This document shows, one piece after another, positions 320 to 13,626 of a DNA stretch of 36,954 bases. This DNA is from Deltaproteobacteria bacterium. Lineage in GTDB: Bacteria > Desulfobacterota > Desulfobulbia > Desulfobulbales > VMSU01. Positions within the stretch are counted from its first letter, which is position 1; every line of letters begins with the position of its first letter. The stretch is from positions 1 to 36,954 of the forward strand of contig JAJYJA010000002.1 of NCBI GenBank assembly GCA_021789795.1. The letters run 5' to 3'. The notes below the pieces were generated by a model. That model did not search any database. It worked only from the letters and a program-made list of their open reading frames with translations, and had not been told where the DNA came from. Made by a program: the position numbers and the translations under genes.

Positions 320-469
320 GATGGCGTCGCAAAAAGACCGATCTACTGCGGCGCGTGGCGGTTTGGCTCGTTCGGCATACCATCTGTATGGCCTTACTCG
401 CCAAACACACCCCGCGCCTTGTATATCGGCCCTTTTGCTTAGCCATCGGCTACCTTTTTGCGAGATCAT
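320..469 (+). repeat. 150-bp palindromic MITE-like element, copy 1
   Basis: About 97% identical to the reverse complement of 13408-13557; imperfect terminal inverted repeats GATGGCGTCGCAAAAAG / CTTTTTGCGAGATCATC; flanking direct repeat CAACCAAG (313-320 and 470-477). Confidence 0.85.
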
Positions 470-4473: not shown

Positions 4474-5837
4474 GACTATACCGCACCCTGCGCCTGGCCC
4501 TGCGGGCCCTGACCCGCAACCCCCTGCGGGCCCTGCTCACCACCCTGGGCATCGTCATCGGGGTGGGGGCGGTGATCGCCATGATGGAGATCGGCGCCGG
4601 CTCCTCCACCGCCATCAAGAAGACCATCGCCAGCATGGGGGCCAACGTCATCCTTATCCTGCCCGGCACCGCAGCCAGCGGCGGGGTAAGTTTCGGGATG
4701 GGCAGCGTCAACACCCTATCCCCGGACGACTGCACCGCCATCGCCCGCGAGTGTCCCTCGGTCAGGAGCGCCGCCCCCATCGTCCGGGCCCGGGCCCAGC
4801 TCGTGTACGGCAGCCGCAACTGGGTGCCGAACCTGATGGACGGCACCACCCCCGCCTTCCTTAACATCCGCGACCTAGACAACCTGACCGAGGGCGAGCC
4901 CTTCACCGAGCGCGACATCCTCAACGGCAACCGGGTCTGTCTCTTGGGGCCGACCATCGTCCGGGAGCTGTTTCAAGGCGAATCGCCGATCGGCAAGGAG
5001 ATTAGGGTAAAGAACGTCAGCTTCCGGGTGGTGGGGGTGCTGCCCGCCAAGGGGGCCAACATGATGGGCATGGATCAGGACGACATCCTGCTCGCCCCCT
5101 GGACCACCATCAAATACCGGGTCACCGGCTCCACCCTTTCCAACTCCAACCAGAGCGCGGCCAGCACCAGCAGCACGGTCAACAGCCTAAGCAACCTCTA
5201 CCCCGGCACCTCAAGCGACCTCTACCCGGCCACCTCGGACGTGCAGGCCGCCGACAACCCCATGCCGGTGCGCTTCGCCACCGTGGACCAGATCCTGGCC
5301 TCGGCCATCAGCACCGAGGAGATCCAAAACGCCATCCGCCAGATCACCGCCCTCCTGCACGAACGCCACCACATCCGGGAGGGAGAGCCCGACGACTTCA
5401 ACATCCGGGACATGACCGAGATGACCAAGACCCTGACCTCCACCACCACCCTGATGGGCAACCTGCTCCTGTGCGTGGCCATGATCTCGCTGGTGGTGGG
5501 CGGGGTGGGGATCATGAACATCATGCTGGTGTCGGTGACCGAGCGCACCCGGGAAATCGGGCTGCGGATGGCGGTAGGCGCCCGGCCCAGCGACATCCTC
5601 CGCCAGTTCCTGGTGGAGGCGATCGTCCTCTGCTTAAGCGGCGGGGCCCTGGGCATCCTGCTGGGGCACGGGGGATCGACGCTGGTCGCCATCCTTCTCC
5701 ACTGGCCGGTGCAGACCTCGCCCGCCGCCATCGTCGCCGCCGTGGCGGTCTCCGTCACCCTGGGACTGGCCTTCGGCTTCTATCCAGCCTGGAAGGCCTC
5801 TCGCCTAGACCCCATCGAGGCCCTGCGCTATGAATGA
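4470..5837 (+). CDS. MacB-type ABC transporter permease
   Basis: ATGA overlap with upstream gene; FtsX-like C-terminus GGVGIMNIMLVSVTERTREIGLRMAVGARPSDILRQFLVEA. Confidence 0.92.
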   Translation: MRLYRTLRLALRALTRNPLRALLTTLGIVIGVGAVIAMMEIGAGSSTAIKKTIASMGANVILILPGTAASGGVSFGMGSVNTLSPDDCTAIARECPSVRSAAPIVRARAQLVYGSRNWVPNLMDGTTPAFLNIRDLDNLTEGEPFTERDILNGNRVCLLGPTIVRELFQGESPIGKEIRVKNVSFRVVGVLPAKGANMMGMDQDDILLAPWTTIKYRVTGSTLSNSNQSAASTSSTVNSLSNLYPGTSSDLYPATSDVQAADNPMPVRFATVDQILASAISTEEIQNAIRQITALLHERHHIREGEPDDFNIRDMTEMTKTLTSTTTLMGNLLLCVAMISLVVGGVGIMNIMLVSVTERTREIGLRMAVGARPSDILRQFLVEAIVLCLSGGALGILLGHGGSTLVAILLHWPVQTSPAAIVAAVAVSVTLGLAFGFYPAWKASRLDPIEALRYE

Positions 5838-5951
5838 TGACGTCGCAACAAACCCGATCTGCCACGTCCCCGTCCAACACCGGCAACGCACCCCGCGCCT
5901 GGCATGTCGGCCCTTTTGTTTAGCCCCTCAGCTACCTTTTGGCGAGATCAT
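5836..5951 (+). repeat. MITE-like element, copy 3 (diverged, 116 bp, internal deletion)
   Basis: Ends GATGACGTCGCAACAA / GGCGAGATCAT and interior CCCCGCGCC..TCGGCCCTTTTG(T/C)TTAGCC match copies 1 and 2; flanked by CTATGAAT / CAATGAAT (7/8). Confidence 0.75.
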
Positions 5952-5953
5952 CA

Positions 5954-7402
5954 ATGAATAGACATCGCATCCCCACCCGCCGCCCTCTCGCCCTGCTGCT
6001 AGGCGCAAGCCTCCTGGCTGGCTGCGCCGTCGGCCCCGACTACCAGCCTCCCCAGGCCGAGGTGCCGGCCCAGTGGTCGAATCAGGAACAAAAGGCCCCC
6101 GCCACCGGGGAGACGGCCAGGGTGAGCGACCAGGAGCTTGGCCGCTGGTGGGAGACCTTCCGCGACTCGACCCTGACCGCGCTTGAGAAACGGGCCTTAA
6201 AGTCAAACCTCGACCTCAAGCTGGCCGCGGCCCGCATCGAACAGGCCCGGGCGTTACGGCTTATGGCCGGGGCCAACCTGGGGCCAGGCCTGGAGGCCAC
6301 CTCCCAGTTCCGCCAGAGCCGCTCCCTGGCTAGTCCGCTTGTCACCAACGGCGGGGCGGCAACGATCGGCAACCAGTTCCAGGCCGGTTTCGATGCCAGT
6401 TGGGAGCTCGACCTCTTCGGCGGCGGACGCCGGGGGGTGGAGGCGGCGGACGCCGATCTCCTGGCCGCCGCCCAGGCGAGTCTAAGCGCCCAGGTCAGCC
6501 TGACCGCCGAGGTGGCCCGCGACTATCTTGAGCTGCGGGCCCTGCAACAGGGCATCATCACCACCAAGGGTGAGATGGCGGCCGAGGAGCAGACGGTAGA
6601 GTTGACCCGCCAGTTGTTCAAGGCCGGGTTCAACAGCCGCCTGGACGTAGAGACCGCCGAGGCCCAGTTAGCTAACCGCCGGGCCCTGCTGCCGCCCTTG
6701 CAGGCGGCGGCCCAGCAGGCCATGCACGGGCTGGCCATCCTGCTAGGCCAGGCGCCGGAGGCCCTGACCGCCGAATTGTCCCCCACCGCCGCCCTGCCCG
6801 AGCCGCCGGCGACCCCGCCCGCCGGGCTGCCCTCCGACCTCCTGCGCCGGCGGCCCGACATCCGCCAGGCCGAGGCCAACATCCACGCCGCCACCGCCCG
6901 GATCGGGGTCGCCGAGGCCGATCTCTTCCCCAAGCTCAACCTCACCGGCGCCATCAGCCTCCAGGGCGACGCCATCAACTCCTGGTTCAACTGGACCAAC
7001 CGCCTCTGGTCGCTGGGGCCGTCGGCCAGCTGGCAGCTCTTCGACAGCGGCAGGATCAGGGCCAACGTCATGCAGCAGCAGAGCATAAAGGATCAAAGCC
7101 TGATCGCCTACCGGCAGACGGTGCTCTCCGCCCTGCAGGAGGTGGAGGACGCCCTGGTCGCGGTCAACCGGGAACGCGAGCACCAACAGGCGCTGCGGCA
7201 GGCCAGGGAGGCGGATCAAAGGGCCCTGAACCTGGCCCGGGACCTTTACACCGCCGGCCAGACAGATTTCACAAGCGTCCTCCTGGCGGAGCAGACCCTC
7301 TACACCGCCGACGACGCCCTAACCCAAAGCAGCAAGGCCCTGGCCACCAACCTGGTCGCCCTCTACAAGGCCCTGGGCGGCGGCTGGCAGACAAGCGGCT
7401 GA
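5954..7402 (+). CDS. NodT/TolC-family outer-membrane efflux lipoprotein
   Basis: Lipobox LLAGC, VGPDYQPPQ; paired OEP repeats; DLLRRRPDIRQAEANIHAATARIGVAEADLFP. Confidence 0.92.
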   Translation: MNRHRIPTRRPLALLLGASLLAGCAVGPDYQPPQAEVPAQWSNQEQKAPATGETARVSDQELGRWWETFRDSTLTALEKRALKSNLDLKLAAARIEQARALRLMAGANLGPGLEATSQFRQSRSLASPLVTNGGAATIGNQFQAGFDASWELDLFGGGRRGVEAADADLLAAAQASLSAQVSLTAEVARDYLELRALQQGIITTKGEMAAEEQTVELTRQLFKAGFNSRLDVETAEAQLANRRALLPPLQAAAQQAMHGLAILLGQAPEALTAELSPTAALPEPPATPPAGLPSDLLRRRPDIRQAEANIHAATARIGVAEADLFPKLNLTGAISLQGDAINSWFNWTNRLWSLGPSASWQLFDSGRIRANVMQQQSIKDQSLIAYRQTVLSALQEVEDALVAVNREREHQQALRQAREADQRALNLARDLYTAGQTDFTSVLLAEQTLYTADDALTQSSKALATNLVALYKALGGGWQTSG

Positions 7403-13378: not shown

Positions 13379-13407
13379 TATCTTTCCTTAAAGGTGGTTA
13401 ATTGATG

Positions 13408-13557
13408 ATGATCTCGCAAAAAGGTAGCCGATGGCTAAGCAAAAGGGTCGATATACAAGGCGCGGGGTGCGTTTGGCGAGTAAGGCCATACACATGGTAT
13501 GCCGAACGAGCCAAACCGCCACGCGCCGCAGTAGATCGGACTTTTTGCGACGCCATC
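13408..13557 (-). repeat. 150-bp palindromic MITE-like element, copy 2
   Basis: Inverted copy of 320-469 (about 4 differences in 150 nt); perfect 8-bp flanking direct repeat AATTGATG at 13400-13407 and 13558-13565. Confidence 0.88.
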
Positions 13558-13626
13558 AATTGATGAGGCGAGGGCATTAACGAGGCCACGCTGGCCACGA
13601 TGATTCGCTTGTGCCTGGCGAGGACT

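Follow-up and report, generated by a model that had tools for sequence, protein, structure and literature searches.

A recently active MITE family with a hairpin body in Desulfobulbales, and a plausible partner insertion sequence

The window analyzed here, a stretch of 36,954 nucleotides, carries three copies of a palindromic element, two of them full length and one decayed, as a preliminary description of the same DNA had reported. Copy 2 precedes the start codon of an ABC-F-like ATPase gene by ca. 30 bp, and copy 3 lies between an FtsX/MacB permease gene and an outer membrane efflux gene. The noncoding element has a length of 151 bp and ends GATGGCGTCGCAAAAAG and CTTTTTGCGAGATCATC, and no plausible gene was found within it, in agreement with the earlier claim that it lacks coding content. 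The features are as follows.

314-319, left target duplication of copy 1, AACCAA
320-470, + strand, MITE copy 1, full length, 151 bp; the closest copies in the host genome are 97-99% identical to it
320-336, + strand, left terminal inverted repeat of copy 1, GATGGCGTCGCAAAAAG; 16 of 17 positions in common with the insertion sequence of genome G143
339-350, + strand, left body box around CGATCTACTGCG; almost invariant in 28 diverse elements
351-415, + strand, apical stem-loop; the arm sequences vary, and covary, between elements
416-429, + strand, right body box around GCCTTGTATATCGG; strongly conserved in 28 diverse elements
431-447, + strand, inner second right end of copy 1, CCTTTTGCTTAGCCATC; base pairs with the left end in the RNA fold prediction; conserved throughout the order
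454-470, + strand, outer right terminal inverted repeat of copy 1, CTTTTTGCGAGATCATC; its last 16 bases are identical to an end of the insertion sequence of genome G163 (L347)
471-476, right target duplication of copy 1, AACCAA
5829-5835, decayed target duplication of copy 3, TATGAAT; a T-GA formed with the element is now the stop of the upstream FtsX/MacB permease gene
5836-5952, + strand, MITE copy 3, decayed, 117 bp; a shorter decayed version occupies the same site in genome G002
5953-5959, decayed target duplication of copy 3, AATGAAT; contains the ATG with which the outer membrane efflux gene begins
13400-13406, target duplication of copy 2, AATTGAT
13407-13557, - strand, MITE copy 2, full length, 151 bp; the site is empty in the sister species G002
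13558-13564, target duplication of copy 2, AATTGAT

The copies were located essentially where they had first been placed, except that one end had been drawn one base short: copy 1 ends at 470 (CATC), which gives 151 bp, and the decayed copy, itself real, is 117 bp rather than 116 bp long. The long imperfect palindrome was borne out, with z scores of -5.3 for the RNA fold and -5.0 for the single-strand DNA fold, the latter equaled by none of 200 shuffles. An asymmetric segment had also been noticed in the right arm; it is present and is not arbitrary, since CTTTTGCTTAGCCATC is the inner second right end, separated by a short spacer from the outer end CTTTTTGCGAGATCATC that comes after it, and is kept across the order. 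At 303-332, the outward-facing left end provides a TTGCGA that stands at promoter distance from a TATAAT in the flank (10 of 12 matches), possibly an outward promoter-like site.

Each copy had been said to be bordered by direct repeats of 7 to 8 bp. The repeats are there, and their length is 6 or 7 bp, never 8 bp; the reported 8-mers were too long because they take in the terminal G or C of the element. Among the 51 distinct copies in the host genome that could be read with both ends and flanks, 41 have exact duplications (26 of 6 bp and 15 of 7 bp), compared with 47 exact repeats of 6 to 7 bp in 2,000 permuted flanks (2.4%). When related genomes are added, 150 distinct instances (104 of 6 bp and 46 of 7 bp) give the consensus A(A/T)NN(A/T)T or A(A/T)NNN(A/T)T, with the outer A and T at 95 to 97%. 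The preliminary description had held that inconsistent flanks genome-wide would speak against transposition; the duplications are in fact consistent both in the host genome and over all instances. We also considered that the conserved flanking T and A might belong to the element ends, which would leave duplications of 4 to 5 bp, and rejected this on the evidence of deviants, such as AACTGG, that repeat the terminal base on both sides.

Joined across copy 2, the flanks align without interruption at the junction in the sister species G002, GGTTAATTGATGAG, with a single AATTGAT, so that the comparison with empty sites that had been proposed for this DNA has a positive answer. At copy 3, the two repeats, TATGAAT and AATGAAT, differ by one mismatch, and the presence of a shorter decayed element at the same site in G002 indicates that this insertion is older. 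The empty site would read CGC TAT GAA TAG, overlapping ATG AAT AGA, which is to say an overlap of the permease gene end and the efflux gene start. Insertion duplicated this overlap, and both frames stayed readable. With a target that ends in T and an element whose first bases are GA, an insertion creates a TGA at the junction.

In the host genome (a 2.4-Mb draft), a pattern search allowing up to 2 mismatches found 114 right ends and 145 left ends, whereas the reversed control patterns gave 0 right and 1 left match; the counts are well beyond chance. Many host copies are 97 to 99% identical to copy 1, and from this near identity it follows that the family was recently active; the 151-bp copies in the window are recent insertions. 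As for placement, only 7 of 35 host copies lie within ORFs (called by a simple length rule), compared with 141 of 185 random positions (76%). The remaining 28 are outside ORFs, several abutting stop codons; 9 copies lie between convergent ORFs and 3 between divergent ones. The AT-rich, symmetric target fits this mostly extragenic location. Family elements are mostly 150 to 162 bp long and exceed 100 copies in a genome, and they include elements nested in elements as well as tandems of the form MITE-duplication-MITE. In such tandems (e.g., host contig C164, 6718-7058, and G002, C2, 26701-27007), the duplicated target of the first copy has served as the insertion site of the second. A variant of 183 to 185 bp at four host loci (L104, L105, L099, and L094) has in its left arm an additional insert, CCCGTCCAACATCAGCGGGGATTGAACAGAATTGCGG, which contains a hairpin.

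Of the genomes in our set of relatives, the host included, 34 of 58 have a family match. The host belongs to the Desulfurivibrionaceae, which we take to be a family of the order Desulfobulbales, and it is in this order that the family is widespread. It also reaches one further family of the phylum, since outside the order the strict pattern occurs in three sampled genomes, all of one family, among them MAG CSMAG_1647 (DAOVTG) with 53 matches. The strict pattern is present in Candidatus Tharpella bins as well. A plasmid collection yielded no MITE and only distant transposases (<60% identity). One family copy was seen in an IMG/VR viral contig (L384, 2332), which is a possible vehicle or route of transfer. 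The papers searched contain no account of this family.

The preliminary description had suggested looking for a transposase, of an insertion sequence or of the Y1/REP type, whose ends match the element. Such a match was found for DDE insertion sequences in other members of the order; the Y1/REP type was not supported. In the single-contig genome G143, the left-end pattern, searched with known MITE bodies excluded, located an insertion sequence of 1,887 bp with MITE-like 17-bp ends, a single ORF of 584 amino acids, and duplications of 6 to 7 bp at most copies checked (a looser pattern, with one base excluded, gave only more MITE variants, and it was the stricter exclusion that gave the insertion sequence). 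Across the order, full-length insertion sequences of about 1.9 kb keep ends of the MITE type, GATGNNNTCG(C/T)AAAAA, also written GATGGCGTCG(C/T)AAAAAG, and the duplications seen at several of them (ATCAATT, ATATGT, AACCTT, AAAGATT, AACTTT, AATTAT, and ACTATT) are of the same A...T type of 6 to 7 bp as those of the MITE. The sequence that the MITE and the insertion sequences have in common is limited to the 16- to 17-bp ends. G143 also harbors short elements of 101 bp with the same end type and duplications of 6 to 7 bp. Elements of about 101 bp adjoin the insertion sequence at three loci (L327 after 2136, L341 near 1280, and L345 near 3303); at the first of these, the two share a duplication, as if one had entered the duplicated target of the other.

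The 584-amino-acid protein has the domains DUF772 and DDE_Tnp_1/DDE_Tnp_1_6, as do members of the IS1182 family. Its best NCBIfam match is NF033551 (IS1182), with an E value of 4e-46 and a score of 157.8 bits, which is below the family cutoff of 270. Judged from these matches, the partner transposase is of the DDE type and distantly related to IS1182; the insertion sequence may conceivably be affiliated with the ISDol1 subgroup of ISNCY. Of 243 genomes of the order, 20 contain relatives of the transposase. In the MITE-rich MAG CSMAG_1647, a decayed relative is present at one locus (L192). For another DDE_Tnp_1 element of the order (L139), a weak candidate with CTAG flanks and different ends was obtained.

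These observations support the earlier reading of the element as a MITE that arrived by a transposition-like event: there are target duplications, an empty site, and insertion sequences with matching ends. We conclude that the palindromes form a genuine MITE family that was active recently and for which there is a plausible partner. The family consists of short noncoding elements with terminal inverted repeats and dispersed duplications, and its partner resides in other genomes of the order; a partner in the same genome, which is usual for a MITE, and a body derived from the partner by internal deletion, which is common, were not found, and neither is required. In all probability, the element is moved in trans. 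A DDE transposase encoded elsewhere would bind its ends and, cutting A(A/T)NN(N)(A/T)T targets with a stagger of 6 or 7 bp, would insert it. Mobility, the ends, the duplication length, the empty site, and the order's ca. 1.9-kb insertion sequences with the same ends and duplications are all directly observed. The mobilizer in the host's own lineage, on the other hand, we can only infer, because the partner transposase gene was not found in the host genome or in the 10 genomes of its family examined (E value, 1e-20); a transposase of the IS1182-related group is the likely mover of the host copies. Nor did the host genome have a DDE_Tnp_1 (PF01609) match. The scan of 16 genomes for this domain found none in G000 or G024, and none of the loci it returned had an insertion sequence with matching ends. 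Many of the MITE copies in the draft assembly are no more than about 150 bases from a contig end, and a multicopy transposase gene may for this reason be absent from it; loss of the gene after the burst is the other possibility.

The same absence can be turned into an argument for a different DDE transposase, unseen as yet in the Desulfurivibrionaceae, with the same end sequence and cutting geometry, given that the copies are near identical and recently active although no relative of the partner was found in the 10 family genomes. We consider this unlikely. The ends match at 16 to 17 bp, the duplications agree in length and in their A...T consensus, the host genome has no DDE_Tnp_1 match, and gene loss or nonassembly accounts for the absence equally well. 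Still harder to entertain, to the point of being scarcely credible, is a REP/REPIN-like element moved through single-stranded DNA by a Y1 (RAYT) transposase. The body is a hairpin, and Y1_Tnp genes, common in the order, include one in the host genome on a contig with two MITE copies. However, target duplications are, to our knowledge, not expected of Y1 transposition, and their presence refutes this explanation in the main; moreover, MITE ends are absent beside the only Y1 gene found in the host genome, and there is a DDE insertion sequence whose ends do match.

Alternatively, selection or recombination might have spread a structured RNA or regulatory repeat, for example a bidirectional terminator or a hairpin for processing, and the flanking repeats would then be incidental. 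This reading might account for the strong fold, for the intergenic placement between convergent and divergent ORFs, and for compensatory change in the apical stem. In 28 diverse elements, 94.6% of apical-stem cells are paired, compared with 84.1% in shuffles, and double-change cells number 68, where shuffles give 19.5 on average and 33 at most; as relatedness among the sequences raises such counts and the structure had itself been obtained from this alignment, this is strong evidence and not a probability. The number of stem pairs with a double change, 9, is not exceptional. The arms are complementary at 71% within elements and at 59% across elements. Selection on the + strand as RNA was rejected, because the non-Watson-Crick stem positions lack an excess of G.T (25 G.T and 41 A.C mismatches). 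With exact duplications, an empty site, no family matched in an Rfam search of the element, and bursts of near-identical copies also against it, the RNA or regulatory explanation is strongly disfavored as a replacement for mobility, and we regard it as very improbable. The preliminary description had set covariation and mobility against each other as alternatives, a choice that did not hold up: compensatory changes in the apical stem coexist with mobility. In one element (L179), the arms are nearly perfect complements, as copying from arm to arm would give. Our results favor constraint at the DNA level, or arm copying, over RNA function, and a secondary role, for instance as a terminator, would be possible. 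The family is a clean case of compensatory change in demonstrably mobile DNA, and it warns against taking covariation as proof of a functional RNA.

What is unusual about the mobile MITE described here is that its deeply conserved hairpin body appears, by sequence comparison, to be independent of the partner's interior. The interiors of seven insertion sequences contain no match to the body of the window element, the ends alone being found, and weak body matches of 12 to 16 bp between other elements and insertion sequences are at chance level, suggesting that simple internal deletion of the sampled insertion sequences did not give rise to the body; like the identity of the mobilizer, this reading depends on a draft genome. 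In the 28 elements, strong conservation to near invariance marks the boxes around GATCTACTGCG and CTTGTATATC...CTTAGCCATC. One tentative possibility, which we think may well be wrong, is that the body is an order-wide hairpin module of an origin separate from the insertion sequence, placed on borrowed insertion-sequence ends because a DNA hairpin is required for the transposition complex or for the element's replication. Its nearly invariant boxes, the doubled right end, and an apical stem that is free in sequence and constrained in structure are the features in question; if the idea is true, this would be a structure-dependent nonautonomous transposon of the DDE class. A defined transposase and stems that can be swapped make it testable why many bacterial MITEs are hairpins, and with more than 100 copies in the host genome and abundance in several relatives, the family comes with a candidate transposase to test.

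Hairpin MITEs of the ERIC, Correia, and NEMIS type are generally described as having TA target duplications. The present elements resemble them in being 100 to 200 bp long, imperfectly palindromic over their length, intergenic, and mobilized in trans and differ in their duplications of 6 to 7 bp. With REP and REPIN sequences they share the short palindromic form, high copy number, and intergenic placement, but they have target duplications, and MITE ends are missing at the host's Y1 gene. IS1272, a relative of IS1182, replaces stem-loops without target duplication (PMC5678879). Our elements, in contrast, make target duplications and do not insert at stem-loops; targeting of that kind was rejected, flank pairing being 2.29 and that of permuted flanks 2.30. 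The Chunjie MITE of Geobacter uraniireducens (Chen et al. 2008, as described in the review PMC10969869) is 178 to 235 bp long, with tens of copies, conserved ends, direct repeats, mostly intergenic sites, and one operon insertion. As far as that description goes, Chunjie is likewise a bacterial MITE of a related group, and its operon insertion has a counterpart in copy 3, tolerated between two genes of an efflux operon; unlike Chunjie, the present elements are mostly 150 to 162 bp long and number over a hundred per genome.

Other repeats were met in the host genome. A second palindromic repeat, GTAACTATYCAGCC...GGCTGAATAGTTAC, resembles REP-type elements and has no copy in the window; it lies inside two MITE copies (L102, 1028-1340, on C149; L103, 771-1115, on C25), and one MITE (L005) conversely sits within it, with flanks CCAGCCGGC...GCCGGCTGG. 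The Y1/RAYT-type transposase gene (ca. 298 amino acids; C234, 13072-13395; L279) has sequence of the GGGGTCAAGTCTTG type on both sides and belongs to a different repeat system. MITE bodies in other genomes (e.g., L125, L129, L194, and L198) contain small inserts that recur, among them CACCCAAAGGGTATAG and CGGAGTCTTCGCTTACCTG, and these may be still smaller repeats.
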